A stretch of 15,826 bases of DNA from an uncultured Aliarcobacter sp. (lineage in GTDB: Bacteria; Campylobacterota; Campylobacteria; Campylobacterales; Arcobacteraceae): the NCBI GenBank assembly GCA_947629065.1, contig CANRCH010000025.1:1-15826 (forward strand), read 5' to 3'. The notes beneath the pieces were generated by a model. It was given only the letters and a program-made list of their open reading frames with translations, was not told where the DNA came from and ran no database searches. Shown one piece after another: positions 5,530 to 11,501 of this stretch. Both the position numbers and the translations under genes were made by a program. Each line of letters opens with the position of its first letter. Position 1 is the first letter of the stretch.

Positions 5530-6936
5530 ATGTCGTCAAAAGGAAAAAAACTACTTAGTATAGTTTTAGTTGCTCTTGTTTTATGGTTTATTCCAGCTCC
5601 AGCTGGACTTACTCCTGAAGCTTGGCGCTATTTAGCAATCTTTTTAGCAGTTGTTGTAGGACTTATCTTAGAGCCAGTTCCAGCAGCTTTAATAGGGTTT
5701 GCGGGAATTTCACTAATTGCTGTTTTAGGACTTGTAGGAAATTCAGGTGAGAGTATAAAATGGGCTTTAAGTGGATTTTCAAATAGTGTTATTTGGCTTA
5801 TTTTTGCAGCATTTATGTTTGCTTTAGGGTACAAAAAAACAGGTCTTGGAAAAAGAGTTTCACTAATTATGGTTAAATATATGGGAAAAAGTACTTTAGG
5901 TTTGGGATATGCGGTTGCAATTTCAGATTTAATTTTAGCTCCTTTTATGCCATCAAACACTGCAAGAAGTGGAGGTACAATCTACCCAGTAGCAATTAAT
6001 ATTCCACAAATTTTTGGCTCACTTCCAGATAATGAACCACGAAAGATTGGTGCTTATATCTCTTGGGTTGCAATTGCATCAACTTGTGTTACAAGCTCAA
6101 TGTTTCTAACAGCACTTGCACCAAACCTACTTGCAGTTGATTTAATAGCAAAAGGAACAGGACACACAATAGCTTGGATGGAGTGGGCAAAAATTATGCT
6201 TCCACTTATGATTCCACTATTTTTACTTACTCCTTGGCTTACTTATGTAATCTATCCACCAACACAAAAGAAATCTCCAGAAGCACCAGCTTGGGCAGCA
6301 GAAGAGCTTAAAAAATTAGGGAGCATTACTTTTAAAGAGTATTTAATGGCAGGACTTGCGGTTTTAGCACTTGTATTATGGATTTTTGGAAAAGAGATAG
6401 GAATAAATGCAACTACAACGGCAATTAGTATTGTATCAATTATGGTTTTAACAGGAGTTATTACATGGGATGATTTACTAAGCGATAAGGCTGCTTTTAA
6501 TGTATTTATCTGGTTTGCTACTTTAGTTGCTCTTGCAGATGGATTAAAAAAAGTTGGAATTTTGGACTTTATAGGGCAAAACTCTGAAGCTATGCTTTCA
6601 GGATTAAGTACAACTTCACTAATAATTGCACTTATAGTTCTGTTTTATGTACTTCACTACTTTTTTGCTAGTACAACAGCCCATGTGACAGCACTTGTGC
6701 CACTATTTATGGTAATTGCTACTACATTTATTCCAGCTGAGCAGATTTTACCTTTTGTTATACTATTTGCAGGAAGTTTGGGAGTTATGGGAATTATCAC
6801 ACCTTATGGATGTGGACCTTCACCTATTTGGTATGGAGCTGGATATATTTCACAAGCTAGATGGTGGGCTTTGGGAGCTATATTTGGAACTATATATCTA
6901 ATTCCAATTTTAATTGGGGTTTTTATATTTATATAA
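5530..6936 (+). CDS. DASS-family anion transporter (CitT-like di/tricarboxylate carrier)
   Basis: This 468-residue inner-membrane protein has about a dozen hydrophobic segments. It fits the divalent anion:Na+ symporter family (SLC13/CitT/DASS). The first substrate-binding hairpin tip has the signature SNT at 142-144 (PFMPSNTARSGGTIYP). The second half has the matching STTAH at 381-385 (FASTTAHVTALVPL), and ITPYGCGPSPIWYGAGY at 423-439 is typical of the CitT branch. Members take up or exchange succinate, malate, 2-oxoglutarate, citrate or tartrate, and the substrate cannot be set from sequence. Na+ coupling versus antiport is also open, since CitT-like proteins exchange. The length is normal. 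It is a single-gene unit with its own promoter and a hairpin terminator at 6945-6970. Confidence 0.9.
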   Translation: MSSKGKKLLSIVLVALVLWFIPAPAGLTPEAWRYLAIFLAVVVGLILEPVPAALIGFAGISLIAVLGLVGNSGESIKWALSGFSNSVIWLIFAAFMFALGYKKTGLGKRVSLIMVKYMGKSTLGLGYAVAISDLILAPFMPSNTARSGGTIYPVAINIPQIFGSLPDNEPRKIGAYISWVAIASTCVTSSMFLTALAPNLLAVDLIAKGTGHTIAWMEWAKIMLPLMIPLFLLTPWLTYVIYPPTQKKSPEAPAWAAEELKKLGSITFKEYLMAGLAVLALVLWIFGKEIGINATTTAISIVSIMVLTGVITWDDLLSDKAAFNVFIWFATLVALADGLKKVGILDFIGQNSEAMLSGLSTTSLIIALIVLFYVLHYFFASTTAHVTALVPLFMVIATTFIPAEQILPFVILFAGSLGVMGIITPYGCGPSPIWYGAGYISQARWWALGAIFGTIYLIPILIGVFIFI

Positions 6937-6943
6937 AACTAAA

Positions 6944-6985
6944 GGCTAAGAGTTTTACTCTTGGCTTTTTAACTTTTCTAAAATC
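6944..6985 (-). pseudogene. Detached copy of the rhuM 3' end (left 42-bp repeat)
   Basis: These 42 bases match 9794-9835 at 40 of 42 positions. The right copy is the genuine 3' end of the RhuM-family gene on the minus strand. In the same frame this left copy still reads ILEKLKSQE, but one change at 6957 turns the Gln codon into TAA, and the other difference at 6976 is silent (Glu). No body of a gene lies upstream, so it is a gene-end remnant or a copy of a dispersed repeat. The codon before Ile reads ATG, which is probably chance. Confidence 0.6.
6945..6970 (+). terminator. Hairpin terminator after the anion transporter
   Basis: GCTAAGAG (6945-6952), loop TTTTA and CTCTTGGC (6958-6965) form an 8-bp stem with one T-G pair, followed by TTTTT. 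It lies 8 bases after the transporter stop and sits inside the left copy of the 42-bp repeat. Confidence 0.7.
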
Positions 6986-6990
6986 ATTTT

Positions 6991-7013
6991 GGAACTAAGG
7001 TTTTAACCTTAGC
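6991..7013 (+). repeat. 23-bp hairpin repeat, left copy
   Basis: This copy is identical over 23 bases to 9757-9779, on the other side of the restriction-modification gene and in the same orientation. Its core CTAAGGTT (6995-7002), TT, AACCTTAG (7005-7012) is a near-perfect palindrome. It lies between the transporter terminator and the promoter of the restriction gene. Confidence 0.9.
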
Positions 7014-7028
7014 AAAAAATATATTTGT

Positions 7029-7034
7029 TATAAT
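7029..7034 (+). promoter_or_regulatory. -10 box of the restriction-modification gene
   Basis: TATAAT within TTTGTTATAATC lies 41 bases before the ATG at 7076. AGGG at 7066-7069 is the ribosome site, 6 bases from the start. The gene therefore has its own promoter inside the repeat-bounded segment. Confidence 0.6.
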
Positions 7035-7075
7035 CAAAACTTCAACACACTAAACAAATCTAAACAGGGTACAAA

Positions 7076-9772
7076 ATGAAATTAAGCTGGAATGAGATAA
7101 AAAACAGAGCAATAAACTTTTCAAAAGAGTGGGAAAAAGAAGAGAAAGAACATGCCGAATCCCAAAGCTTTTGGAATGACTTTTTTAATATTTTTGGAGT
7201 TAGTAGAAGAAGAGTTGCTTCATTTGAAGAGCCTGTAAAAAAATTAGGGGATAAAAGAGGTAGAATTGACCTTTTTTGGAAGGGCACACTTTTGGTTGAG
7301 CATAAATCAAGAGGCAAAGATTTAGAAAAAGCCTACACTCAAGCACTTGATTATTTTCCAGGGCTAAAAGATGCAGAACTTCCAAAATACATACTTATCT
7401 CAGATTTTGAAACTTTCAAGCTATATGATTTGGAAGAAAACACAAACCACGAATTTTTACTAAGTGATTTGTACAAAAATGTTCATCTTTTTGGATTTAT
7501 TGCTGGTTATGTAAAATACAAAGTTGTAGAAGAAGACCCAATAAACATAGAAGCTGCCCAAATTATGGGAAAACTTCACGACAAATTAAAAGATATTGGC
7601 TACACAAACCACCCTTTGGAGCTATTTTTAGTAAGACTTCTTTTTTTATGTTTTGCAGAAGATACCTCTATTTTTGAAAAAAGAAGTTTCATAGAGTTTA
7701 TAGAAAACCGCACAAATGAAGATGGTAGCGATTTAGGAAGCCGTCTTACAGAACTTTTTCAAGTTTTAAACACACCTTTTGAAAAAAGATTAAAAAATCT
7801 TGATGAAACTTTGGCAAGTTTTCCCTATGTAAATGGAAAGCTTTTTGAAGAATTTTTGCCAATTGCTTCATTTGATAGCCAAATGCGACAAACTTTGCTT
7901 GATTGTTGTAACCTTGATTGGAGCAAAATCTCTCCAGCTATTTTTGGTTCACTTTTTCAATCTATTATGGACAAAGAGCATAGAAGAAATTTAGGGGCTC
8001 ACTATACAAGTGAAGCAAATATTTTAAAGCTAATCCGCCCACTTTTTTTAGATGAGTTATATGAGAAATTTGAAAAGGTAAAGAAAAATAAAAAACAATT
8101 AACAGAGTTTCACAAAGAGTTATCAACTTTGCATTTTCTCGACCCTGCTTGTGGAAGTGGAAATTTTTTAATCATTGCATATAGAGAGCTTAGAGTTTTG
8201 GAACTAGAGATTTTAAAAGCTCTTTATAGTGAAAATGTACTTGATATTTCTTCAATAGTTTGGTGCGATGTTGATCAATTTCACGGAATTGAAATAGAAG
8301 AGTTTCCAGCACAAATTGCACAAGTTGCAATGTGGCTAATAGACCACCAAATGAATATGATGATAAGCGAACATTTTGGGCAATATTTTGTAAGGTTGCC
8401 ACTTAAAAAATCAGCAAATATCGTAAATGCAAACTCTTTGCAAATATCTTGGGAAGATGTGATAAGCAAGGATAAATTAACTTATATTTTTGGTAATCCA
8501 CCGTTTATTGGAAAACAGCTTCAAAACAAAGAACAAAAAGAAGATATGGCAAAAGTCTTTAATAAAGTTAAAGGTGCTGGAGTTTTAGACTTTGTAACAG
8601 CTTGGTATTTAAAAGCTTCAAAATATATTCAAAACAGAAAAATAAAAGTAGCTTTTGTATCTACAAACTCAATATCTCAAGGAGAGCAAGTAGGAGTTTT
8701 ATGGAAAGAACTTTTTACAAACTATGGAATAAAAATCCACTTTGCACACCAAACATTTAACTGGAGCAATGAAGCAAAATCAAATGCAGCAGTGCATGTG
8801 GTAATAGTAGGATTTGCCTCTTTTGATATAACAAATAAAAAAATATTTGAATATGAAAATATCAAAGGTGATGCTTTGGAAAAAAGCGTAAAAAATATAA
8901 ATCCTTATTTAGTAGAAGGTGATGATATTGTAATAGAAAAAAGAAGAAAACCACTTTGTAATGTTCCAAATATCTCTTTTGGAAGTATGCCAAATGATGG
9001 TGGTAATTTTTTATTAACAGATGAAGAAAAAGAAGAACTGATTTTAAAAGAGCCATTTTGTGAAAAATATATAAAACCACTTTTAAGTGCAAATGAATTT
9101 TTAAATGGAAAAAATAGATGGTGTTTATGGCTTGAAGATTTAAACCCAAATGATTTAAAACAAATGCCACTTGTAAAACAAAGAGTAGAAAATGTAAAAA
9201 AATTAAGAGAAGAAAGCACAAGAGAAGCTACAAAAAAACTTGCACAATTTCCCACACTTTTTGGAGAAATAAGACAGCCAAATAGTGAATACATTGCAGT
9301 TCCACTAACTACATCTGAAAATAGAGATTATATTCCATTTGGATATTTTTCAAAAGATGTAATTTCAAATAATACAATGAGTGTTATAGCTAACTCATCT
9401 TTATTTTATTTTGGAGTTTTAACATCTATTATGCATATGACTTGGGTTAAATATACTTGTGGAAGACTAGAAAGTCGTTATAGATATTCAAATGAATTAG
9501 TTTATAACAATTTTCCATTTCCAAAAGATGTTAGTGAAAAACAAAAAAATATAGTGGAAGAGAAAGCAAAAAAAGTTTTGGATATTAGAGCTAGTTTTGA
9601 AGATTGTAGTTTAGCTGACCTTTATAACCCGCTTTCTATGCCACCAATTTTGAAAAAAGCTCATCAAGATTTGGATAAAGCTGTGGATAGTTGCTATGGC
9701 TTGAAATCTTTTAAAAATGATAAAGAAAGAATTGAATTTTTATTTGGATTGTATTCGGAACTAAGGTTTTAA
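7076..9772 (+). CDS. MmeI-like type II restriction-modification enzyme (type IIG/IIL)
   Basis: This single 898-residue polypeptide combines DNA cleavage, adenine methylation and sequence recognition. The N-terminal nuclease domain (about 1-150) has Asp65, Glu75 and Lys77, in GRIDLFWKG and LVEHKSRGK. This D-x9-E-x-K spacing is that of MmeI-type enzymes. A helical spacer follows at about 155-300. The methyltransferase has the cofactor motif DPACGSGNF at 356-364 and the catalytic NPPF at 474-477, which indicates N6-adenine methylation. The target-recognition domain is at about 620-815 and a helical C-terminus ends the protein. No separate restriction or specificity gene is present, as expected for this class, whose enzymes usually methylate one strand and cut about 20 bases away. 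The frame and all motifs are intact, so it is probably active. The last four residues ELRF and the TAA stop are encoded within a repeat that also occurs at 6991-7013, a sign of cassette-like acquisition. Confidence 0.93.
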   Translation: MKLSWNEIKNRAINFSKEWEKEEKEHAESQSFWNDFFNIFGVSRRRVASFEEPVKKLGDKRGRIDLFWKGTLLVEHKSRGKDLEKAYTQALDYFPGLKDAELPKYILISDFETFKLYDLEENTNHEFLLSDLYKNVHLFGFIAGYVKYKVVEEDPINIEAAQIMGKLHDKLKDIGYTNHPLELFLVRLLFLCFAEDTSIFEKRSFIEFIENRTNEDGSDLGSRLTELFQVLNTPFEKRLKNLDETLASFPYVNGKLFEEFLPIASFDSQMRQTLLDCCNLDWSKISPAIFGSLFQSIMDKEHRRNLGAHYTSEANILKLIRPLFLDELYEKFEKVKKNKKQLTEFHKELSTLHFLDPACGSGNFLIIAYRELRVLELEILKALYSENVLDISSIVWCDVDQFHGIEIEEFPAQIAQVAMWLIDHQMNMMISEHFGQYFVRLPLKKSANIVNANSLQISWEDVISKDKLTYIFGNPPFIGKQLQNKEQKEDMAKVFNKVKGAGVLDFVTAWYLKASKYIQNRKIKVAFVSTNSISQGEQVGVLWKELFTNYGIKIHFAHQTFNWSNEAKSNAAVHVVIVGFASFDITNKKIFEYENIKGDALEKSVKNINPYLVEGDDIVIEKRRKPLCNVPNISFGSMPNDGGNFLLTDEEKEELILKEPFCEKYIKPLLSANEFLNGKNRWCLWLEDLNPNDLKQMPLVKQRVENVKKLREESTREATKKLAQFPTLFGEIRQPNSEYIAVPLTTSENRDYIPFGYFSKDVISNNTMSVIANSSLFYFGVLTSIMHMTWVKYTCGRLESRYRYSNELVYNNFPFPKDVSEKQKNIVEEKAKKVLDIRASFEDCSLADLYNPLSMPPILKKAHQDLDKAVDSCYGLKSFKNDKERIEFLFGLYSELRF

Positions 9773-9779
9773 CCTTAGC
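9757..9779 (+). repeat. 23-bp hairpin repeat, right copy, overlapping the gene end
   Basis: This copy is identical to 6991-7013. It supplies the last codons GAA CTA AGG TTT TAA of the restriction-modification gene. The palindromic core (9761-9768, 9771-9778) may also serve as a weak terminator for this gene, though no T-run follows. Confidence 0.9.
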
Positions 9780-9793
9780 TCTTAAAAGAATTT

Positions 9794-9835
9794 GGCTAAG
9801 AGTTTTGCTCTTGGCTTTTTAACTTCTCTAAAATC
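9794..9835 (-). repeat. 42-bp hairpin repeat, right copy, forming the rhuM 3' end
   Basis: This copy is 40/42 identical to 6944-6985. On the minus strand it encodes the last 12 or so residues of the RhuM-family protein, ILEKLKSQEQNS, and its TAG stop at 9796-9798. The hairpin GCTAAGAG/CTCTTGGC (9795-9802, 9808-9815) with TTTTT on its plus-strand side would also terminate plus-strand transcripts leaving the restriction gene. Confidence 0.85.
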
Positions 9836-10659
9836 TCACCTATATCTAAACTCATCTTTGAAAATGCGAACCACTTTTTACCTAAATCTTTAAGACTAGC
9901 TCCAATATGATATATCTCTTTTTTATCAATTATCAAAAACCTATCGTGGCTTTCTTTAAAAGTTTTTAGAGTTATATTTTTGTATTGTTTTTGGTATTTT
10001 TCAAAATCTAGGTTTAGTTGTTTTGAAATATTTGAAGTATAGATTATAAAACTAATATTTGGGTATTTAGAAAAAAGAGTAAAAACTGTATCATCTATAT
10101 AATTGTCTATCAAAATTATTTCACTTTTTGCTAGTTTTAGCAAATCATTTATAAAAGAGTAGCTATCAAAAACTTGTCCATCATAAAATATATTTTCTTT
10201 TAACTCTAATCTATTGTTTTTTATTTTGGATTTTATAAATTGCATATCATTTTCAAGAGATAAAAGTCTTTGTTCTGTTATTTTATGAGAGTTTATCGCA
10301 TAGCCATTTTGTATATAATTTTTCAAAATAGAAGTTGCCCATTGTCGAAACTTTGTGGCTTTTATTGAGTTTACCCTATATCCAATAGAAATAATCATAT
10401 CAAGATTATAGTGTTCAACATTTCTCTCTACTTCTCTATTTCCCTCTTTTTGAACTATTAAGAAATTCTGAATAGTTCGATTTTTTATAAGCTCTACATC
10501 TTTATAAATAGCTTTTATGTGCATATTTATATTAGGAACAGTTACATTAAACAGTTCTGCTAGTTGCCTTTGAGTTAGCCAAATTGTTTCACTATCTACT
10601 GAAACTTTTAGTTCTAATTCTCCATCATTATAAACAACAAGATTTGACAAGCTTTGCAT
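9796..10659 (-). CDS. RhuM-family protein with phospholipase-D-like C-terminal domain
   Basis: This 287-residue soluble protein has an N-terminal RhuM domain at about 5-120. WLTQRQLAELFNVTVPNINMHI resembles a helix-turn-helix, followed by KEGNREVERNVEHYNLDMIISIGYRVNS and FRQWATSIL, both diagnostic of the family. A short helical linker leads to a second domain (about 155-275) with KSEIILIDNYID, then HDRFLIID at 238-245, an H-x-R-x4-D variant of the phospholipase D motif, and IYHIGASLKDLGKKWFAF. The same C-terminal domain occurs in phage-type ORF6N proteins. RhuM was named as a Salmonella pathogenicity-island protein, its function is unsettled, and homologues often sit beside restriction systems. 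AAGGA at 10666-10670 supports the ATG. It is convergent with the restriction gene. The extreme C-terminus derives from a repeat also found at 6944-6985. Confidence 0.85.
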   Translation of the reverse strand: MQSLSNLVVYNDGELELKVSVDSETIWLTQRQLAELFNVTVPNINMHIKAIYKDVELIKNRTIQNFLIVQKEGNREVERNVEHYNLDMIISIGYRVNSIKATKFRQWATSILKNYIQNGYAINSHKITEQRLLSLENDMQFIKSKIKNNRLELKENIFYDGQVFDSYSFINDLLKLAKSEIILIDNYIDDTVFTLFSKYPNISFIIYTSNISKQLNLDFEKYQKQYKNITLKTFKESHDRFLIIDKKEIYHIGASLKDLGKKWFAFSKMSLDIGEILEKLKSQEQNS

Positions 10660-10754: not shown

Positions 10755-11501
10755 CTATATAAACACTTCAATAATTAAAATTAATGCAATTAAAAACAAA
10801 AATGCTTTTATAACTTTATTATATAGTTCTTGAGAGATTTTATCTTTTATTTTAAATCCTAAATACATAAAAACAACTATTGTAAATACTGTAAAAATAG
10901 ATGTACTTACAACTTCACTTGAGATATATCCATAATATGAAAATAGTATTAACTGTATAATTTTACTAGATAAAAAGCACATATTCGCAGCTTGAATAGT
11001 CTCTTTTTTTGAGAATTTTGACTCCAAAGAGTAGATTAAAAGTGTAACAGACATAACATTTGTAAGCCCACCAAGAAGCCCTGTTCCTGTACCAAAAATA
11101 GCTCTGCTTAAAGATTTTTTTCTATAAACCCAAGATAGTTTTATATTTAATTTATTAAAAAATAGATAAAAAAGAATAGAAAATGCAAGTAATATTTTAA
11201 AAATTTCAGAGTTTGAGTAGATTAAAATATATGTTCCAATTGCACTTCCAATAAGCGAGAAAAAGGCCAGTTTATAAAACTTTTTAAATGCTTCAAGAAA
11301 ACTTCCCTCTTTTTTTATAGACATCAAATTTACTACAATTGCAGGAAACAAAAGATATATTATTGCTGTTTTTATATCTGTAAAAGTGGCTAAAATAGGA
11401 GTTGCAAGCATTAAAAAACCAACTCCAATACTTCCTTGAACAAGAGCTGCAATAGTAATTGCAAGTGTTAAAGCTAGTGTAAAAGTAGAAAGTAGTTCCA
11501 T
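10755..11501 (-). CDS. TauE/SafE-family membrane permease
   Basis: This 248-residue integral membrane protein has about eight hydrophobic segments in two halves. The first opens with ALVQGSIGVGFLMLATPIL (residues 20-38), the second with GTGTGLLGGLTNVMSVTLLIYSL. These glycine-rich entries are the hallmark of the TauE/SafE family, which moves sulfite, sulfoacetate, sulfolactate or related small anions, and some members move other substrates. The substrate is not assignable here. It follows dsbD by 15 bases on the same strand, which could reflect a joint role in sulfur or redox chemistry, although a hairpin lies between. No clear ribosome site precedes the ATG at 11501, and starting later would cut the first membrane segment. 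Confidence 0.82.
   Translation of the reverse strand: MELLSTFTLALTLAITIAALVQGSIGVGFLMLATPILATFTDIKTAIIYLLFPAIVVNLMSIKKEGSFLEAFKKFYKLAFFSLIGSAIGTYILIYSNSEIFKILLAFSILFYLFFNKLNIKLSWVYRKKSLSRAIFGTGTGLLGGLTNVMSVTLLIYSLESKFSKKETIQAANMCFLSSKIIQLILFSYYGYISSEVVSTSIFTVFTIVVFMYLGFKIKDKISQELYNKVIKAFLFLIALILIIEVFI

Follow-up and report, generated by a model that had tools for sequence, protein, structure and literature searches.

This analysis concerns two pairs of hairpin-forming repeats that enclose a restriction-modification gene in a 15.8-kb contig of an uncultured Aliarcobacter sp. (CANRCH010000025.1, 15,826 nucleotides, hereafter the window), which belongs to a draft assembly of 1.72 Mb in 206 contigs that is 88% complete. 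Between a gene for a DASS-family sodium:anion symporter, whose closest named relatives are Aliarcobacter and Arcobacter records, and a TauE/SafE-family gene lie an MmeI-like Type IIG restriction-modification gene and a RhuM-family gene (Table 1). The MmeI-like protein comprises N-terminal, helical, methyltransferase, target-recognition and C-terminal MmeI domains, with five Pfam models over the cut-off (PF20464, PF20465, PF20473, PF20466 and PF20467), and is classed by PADLOC as REase_MTase_IIG. Only four window proteins were run on Pfam; the remaining open reading frames (ORFs) were judged by reading. RhuM has been found with restriction genes, and a toxin role has been proposed for it, in PMC3710099.

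Recomputation bore out the geometry described in the original prediction. A 42-bp pair (A) and a 23-bp pair (B, 23/23 identical) flank the restriction gene, with all four copies direct and their order swapped, A-B on the left and B-A on the right; the interval from A to B is 5 bp on the left side and 14 bp on the right. Extension of pair B from 6988/9754 gives 25 of 26 identical positions, and the longest exact direct repeat in the window is 23 nt, against 13–19 nt in 200 dinucleotide shuffles. The right-hand copies are coding, as had been claimed: right B encodes the SELRF-stop of the MmeI-like enzyme, and right A encodes the RhuM end EILEKLKSQEQNS-stop. Recombination within either pair would, by sequence logic, excise the restriction gene, as also anticipated, although the deletion itself is unobserved. 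On the plus strand, A presents a hairpin and a T run (predicted fold of 6938-6975, at left A, −14.8 kcal/mol) and would probably terminate both the DASS and the MmeI transcripts.

Table 1. Genes and repeats of the DASS–tauE site, in window coordinates.
Feature	Position	Strand	Evidence
DASS-family sodium:anion symporter gene, left border of the putative acquisition site	5530..6936	+	PF00939 E 1.8e-149, TIGR00785
Left A: hairpin and last codons of a second rhuM; on + strand hairpin then TTTTT (terminator-like)	6944..6985		40/42 to 9794-9835
rhuM relic K-M-I-L-E-K-L-K-S-Q-E-stop; preceding S overlaps B	6955..6990	-	three-frame translation, RhuM ends
Left B: GGAA-tagged palindrome at left joint of MmeI segment	6991..7013	+	
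MmeI-like Type IIG restriction-modification gene, 898 aa, with its final residues and stop codon inside right B	7076..9772	+	
Right B: identical palindrome, where the enzyme usually has its ...YEEYL tail	9757..9779	+	
14-bp spacer, right B to right A	9780..9793		
Right A: intact rhuM 3' end including hairpin	9794..9835		40/42 to left A
RhuM-family gene, 287 aa, convergent with MmeI	9796..10659	-	PF13310; PADLOC PDC-S05
TauE/SafE-family gene, right border	10755..11501	-	PF01925

The two repeat pairs differ in nature. Searched with its first 27 bases at up to three mismatches, A has no further copy in the assembly beyond the two, whereas a structure model of B finds at least 34 relatives dispersed through the same genome (E 0.01). 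The suggestion that all four hairpins belong to one family thus holds for the letters that they share and fails on copy number, which separates the two. Protein ends, read among 120 listed RhuM homologues, point to where A comes from. Most RhuM relatives end in ...DEILEKLK-stop or in variants such as LDDILHKLEV; the window RhuM extends past this usual end with SQEQNS, encoded by hairpin A. An ending of the form EILEKLK(S/N)QEQ(N/S)S occurs in five of the 120 listed RhuM homologues, the window's own included (P0001-P0003, P0035 and P0045), of which P0002 and P0003 match the window RhuM at 99%, and P0035 and P0045, whose N-terminal part differs, at 83%. Four listed homologues besides the window's share (S/N)QEQ(N/S)S, so hairpin A has been passed down within this rhuM lineage. 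A 26-nt match in genome G088 (L207) covers the hairpin part of A alone. Some RhuM proteins (P0001, P0035, P0045; L145) combine a near-constant C-terminal part with differing N-terminal residues, about 28-100, as if these had been exchanged.

Read on the minus strand, left A gives S-K-M-I-L-E-K-L-K-S-Q-E-stop, with B immediately adjoining. The intact rhuM end reads S-K-M-S-L-D-I-G-E-I-L-E-K-L-K-S-Q-E-Q-N-S, and the left copy is without SLDIGE (18 nt). Because it reads in frame as a shortened form of the intact end, left A is a relic of a second rhuM copy, of which only the 3' end, short of 18 nt, is left; its S-K part is partly ambiguous, as T runs often precede B copies. Among 104 genomes of the family, rhuM matches occur in 76, with several in runs, and rhuM tails separate from the full gene are found in G030 (L145) and G028 (L209).

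The right-hand joint lies within the enzyme itself. The usual MmeI end, ...FLFGLYEEYL.., is found in most of the 120 listed homologues (69 of the 120 end in FGLYEEYLNTQK), and none of them has a SELRF end. Right B therefore takes the place of the usual enzyme tail. Both ends of the MmeI segment are B: left B adjoins the rhuM relic and right B stands at the enzyme tail.

A comparison with strains lacking the gene, to look for an empty site, had been suggested; relative to other species the gene is an insert. Ten of 31 DASS loci also show tauE; in nine of these the two genes are adjacent, with less than 100 bp between matches (L048, L050-L054, L056, L057 and L078), and the empty loci include those of G028 (L050) and G009 (L052), whose genomes are rich in B-type hairpins. 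The tenth (L055) holds other cargo, a 348-aa ORF at 9440-10486; by eye this gene is RelA/SpoT-like, and a terminator-like hairpin lies beside its DASS gene. Within the species the comparison is uninformative, with no MmeI above 88% among the matches listed and the window's own protein itself missing from that listing. Plasmid or phage carriage of MmeI or rhuM was considered and rejected for want of a close match: the plasmid matches (20 and 22 records) all show 60-80% identity over less than 80% of the query, and phage matches number 4 records.

B belongs to a dispersed family whose 23-nt unit consists of GGAA, a 7-bp stem, a 4-nt loop, the second arm and usually a C. The GGAA tag is present in all 18 aligned members, which were picked by that tag. 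Both bases vary at five of the seven stem pairs, with a covariation score of 0.627 where shuffles give 0.220 (0/500); the 18 sequences were picked as hairpins, so that pairing is partly by construction. The window's own genome, G000, contains the 18-nt core of B in six exact copies; two more differ by one and by two mismatches, and the latter lacks the tag. A looser pattern matches 23 times in G000 (reversed control 0) and, across 31 genomes of the genus, in six (G000 23, G028 14, G009 2, and G026, G014 and G019 one each); its reversed control gives one match each in G011, G017 and G019, and the matches in G014 and G019 have no regular stem. The structure model built on the 18 members, whose counts per genome are lower bounds, finds at least 34 hairpins in G000, 36 in G028 and 26 in G009 at E 0.01, with 1-5 in 13 other genus genomes and none in 15 of the 31. 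At E 0.001 it matches in 20 of the 104 family genomes, with at least 45 hairpins in G101, a member of another genus that we group with G000, G009 and G028 as hairpin-rich. The G000 hairpins form 25 clusters in 1.72 Mb, and several are inverted pairs with tags outward (C10, C17, C21, C63 and C81). Judging from this dispersal and from the contrast of occupied and empty sites, B hairpins are most likely small mobile palindromes.

In a longer form of the hairpin, the loop contains an additional motif of about 27 nt. That motif, TTTCTCANAGAGAGTGC-N-GCACAAGA, consists of two mini-hairpins and occurs in 36 of the 104 family genomes, at most nine times per genome (reversed control 0). Its places (L164-L193 and others; in G000 C7, C21 and C85) include GGAA hairpin loops, intergenic DNA, the inside of a broken rhuM (L166/L219) and some open frames, a frame of at least 120 codons being found at 10 of 31 places checked. 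At L246 (G009:C54:83214-87617), 4.4 kb of DNA holds eleven GGAA hairpins, four of them in a shikimate kinase ORF. Rfam returned no family at gathering score in 14 sources, including for the 27-nt motif in the sources searched.

A cognate RAYT was considered as the mover, and none was found in G000, G009 or G028. Y1_Tnp (PF01797) is absent from G028 and G009 and occurs in G000 solely as a Y1-SapC fusion (G101 was not searched); the Y1 transposase domain is present in six of the 31 genus genomes, and a GGAAC hairpin with an exact 7-bp stem is absent from all seven Y1 loci. The fusion protein (L043:565-1866, 433 aa) lies beside an ORF resembling an ABC transporter.

Hairpins and rhuM often lie close together in the hairpin-rich genomes. 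Of 15 listed rhuM places, out of 22 tallied in these four genomes, six lie no more than 200 bp from a listed hairpin, where 0.2 would be expected; the test is post hoc, and the window's rhuM is one of the six. A rhuM relic in G028 is boxed by two long-form hairpins, with a further pair inside. At L163 (G000:C85), close to a pglZ-domain gene, direct repeats of 53 and 28 bp enclose another rhuM, and the 28-bp repeat contains the hairpin. Boxing by direct repeats does not amount to a rule for rhuM: among 23 near-full-length places in the larger loci, clear repeats of at least 50 bp on both sides were seen, leaving aside the rhuM runs L149 and L144, at L163, L153 and L150, and the L153 repeat is the region upstream of two antitoxin-like ORFs.

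Based on these joints and on the relic, we lean towards the view that the window contains a defence-gene exchange site, in which short hairpins mark, and perhaps served as, the recombination joints. The DASS-tauE gap would have been a gene-acquisition site that first gained rhuM with hairpin A at its 3' end. This rhuM would apparently have stood in two tandem copies, as in several relatives, and a GGAA palindrome, B, would then have come to lie inside the tail of copy 1. The MmeI-like gene would have taken the place of the copy-1 body, with B on each side. The most economical route would be recombination at B, either homologous, through 23-26 bp of identity, or illegitimate. Dispersed 23-nt palindromes could in this way act as short portable homologies, swapping a rhuM body for MmeI, and the exchange may have taken place during uptake of foreign DNA.

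Several points weigh against this proposal. Neither exchange nor deletion has been seen, no same-species strain with or without MmeI is readable, and the genome remains an incomplete draft (206 contigs, 88%). Identity over 23-26 bp is short for RecA recombination. The structure model, run on 67 sources (13 DASS, 38 rhuM and 16 at 15 MmeI-type loci with E 5e-109 or better, a limit that excludes weaker matches such as the Eco57I-like L099 and L101, E 1e-9 to 1e-7), returned two hairpins, both in a single rhuM source (L120, from G028). A hairpin is thus found at none of the 15 other close MmeI loci and in one of the 38 rhuM sources, and outside the hairpin-rich genomes there is no general hairpin tie to MmeI or rhuM. 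The same result speaks against the original picture of a gene cassette carrying its own 3' hairpin, as do the genome-wide dispersal of B and the identity of A as the 3' end of rhuM.

The same picture would result from two independent hairpin insertions, and the strongest alternative, which we consider unlikely though serious, builds on this: MmeI would have come by ordinary homologous or illegitimate recombination, and the B copies would have inserted later and independently at its ends, with no role in its arrival. The dispersal of the family, its frequent occurrence between genes and as inverted pairs, and the lack of B at the 15 other close MmeI loci searched all fit such a history. What it does not readily account for is that the two copies are identical, direct and placed exactly at both joints; with 25 clusters in 1.72 Mb, a chance pair around one gene seems unlikely, as judged without a formal test.

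The remaining alternatives fare considerably worse. Under site-specific integration, A would be the core of an attachment site at the 3' end of rhuM, and a small island served by an integrase acting from elsewhere would have duplicated it. The 42-bp direct repeat does have dyad symmetry, lies at a gene 3' end and leaves the intact rhuM with its end, but A occurs just twice in the assembly, its left copy is decayed (18-nt loss, earlier stop, interruption by B), and no integrase was recognised on reading the window ORFs, so that we regard this history as improbable. We give still less credence to misassembly, in which a short-read draft would have joined unrelated contigs at B. Repeated sequence at both joints and the 206 contigs are what such an error would need; repeats of 23-26 bp, however, are shorter than the usual final k-mers, MmeI is in frame through to its stop, and the spacers beside the window B copies differ from those at other B copies. 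Movement of B-MmeI-B as a composite element, with A as target-site duplication, would suit the nesting of a direct B pair in a direct A pair and is the least credible of all, given the unequal A-B intervals, the lack of B at the 15 other close MmeI loci, the absence of a recognised transposase on reading the window ORFs and a sole Y1 domain in G000 that is fused to SapC at a locus without a GGAA hairpin.

Beyond the exchange site that we favor, the family is also present inside coding genes. Of 105 model matches, 100 were checked for ORF position (five weak ones, E 0.00039 to 0.0024, were left out), and 36 of these, from 52 sources that were picked rather than sampled, fall entirely within ORFs of 100 aa or more; G000 contributes two of 28, one being a doubtful 107-aa ORF. 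The 22 host ORFs scanned, with one 107-aa ORF (L029) left out, comprise nine for restriction-modification, seven for sugar-nucleotide enzymes (epimerase, dehydratase or RmlD), three for FdhD, and one each for shikimate kinase, ORF6N and a protein without family. Eight of the restriction-modification hosts are Eco57I-like (G000, G006, G008, G009, G015, G016, G027 and G028) and one is Type ISP (G009). Among the Eco57I-like proteins, site 1 is occupied by the hairpin in G028, G009 (as a pair), G008 and G015 and is empty in G006, G013, G016, G027, G048 and G100; G000 has an insert there that the model does not match. In G028 the hairpin adds eight residues that six homologues lack. At site 2 eight of 11 comparable proteins have the hairpin (G014_L105 did not align), which may there have replaced enzyme sequence instead of being added to it. 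Part of this spread could reflect common descent and transfer of the enzyme gene. L099 and L101 belong to these Eco57I-like enzymes and carry hairpins in frame, and another Type IIG-like restriction gene, at G000:C20:15739-15761 (L258), contains an in-frame GGAA hairpin read as IGSEVLTSP.

Codon phase was examined as a signal of selection and rejected: 30 of 35 hairpins share a phase, which is largely the only stop-free one, and the hairpins were chosen for lying in ORFs. Right B of the window is read in another phase and therefore yields SELRF-stop. Taking the coding and the rhuM hairpins together, we tentatively suggest that GGAA coding palindromes of Arcobacteraceae, orphaned of a transposase, might jump in frame into restriction-modification and surface-sugar genes, as an 8-residue loop, and gather at rhuM loci as portable joints that exchange whole defence genes such as MmeI. 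We consider this wider picture possible rather than probable.

For the window, the hairpin family accounts for the hairpins on either side of a restriction gene. A group with cultured strains, and with a 24-nt version at a fixed restriction-enzyme site that some species have and others lack, would make it testable whether such palindromes are tolerated, useful or selfish, and what moves palindromes that have no known transposase.

We found no account of such a palindromic element in the open-licence literature on Arcobacter and Campylobacterota palindromes. Its nearest formal counterparts are the repetitive extragenic palindromic sequences (REPs; PMC3733652), which are likewise stem-loops of 20-40 bp with an unpaired end tetranucleotide, compensating stem changes, inverted pairs and tens of copies; in the same source some REPs of the GTAG and CGTC superfamilies lie inside genes, and CGTC repeats also occur without RAYT. 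The HuH and RAYT classes are treated in PMC6006769. The B family differs from REPs in its tag, GGAA rather than GTAG or CGTC, in having no classical RAYT in G009 or G028, and in the 36 of 100 examined hairpins that lie inside ORFs. The Rickettsia palindromic elements (PMC10969869, which also deals with in-frame fusions of miniature inverted-repeat transposable elements, MITEs, in general) resemble B in that they are palindromes lying in frame within protein genes unrelated to one another, and some of them occupy one shared position in orthologues from several species. Compared by description and not by sequence, they are about 150 bp long, whereas the B unit is 23 nt, single or as an inverted pair, and its hosts are Campylobacterota, mainly in restriction, sugar-nucleotide and fdhD genes. 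An integron gene cassette would similarly consist of a single gene between direct repeats that show dyad symmetry; here, by contrast, one repeat is the end of rhuM and the other a dispersed palindrome, with no array and no integrase recognised on reading the window ORFs.

Restriction genes are a frequent cargo of minimal mobile elements. The window, too, holds variable cargo (MmeI and rhuM) and no mobility genes recognised on reading its ORFs; it differs in that the hairpin is not a known uptake sequence and that exchange by transformation is only presumed here. The features that liken it to the minimal mobile elements of Neisseria, as outlined in PMC3388099, are variable cargo between conserved genes, homologous recombination, which we propose as one possible route for the window, and short repeats, some of them terminators.

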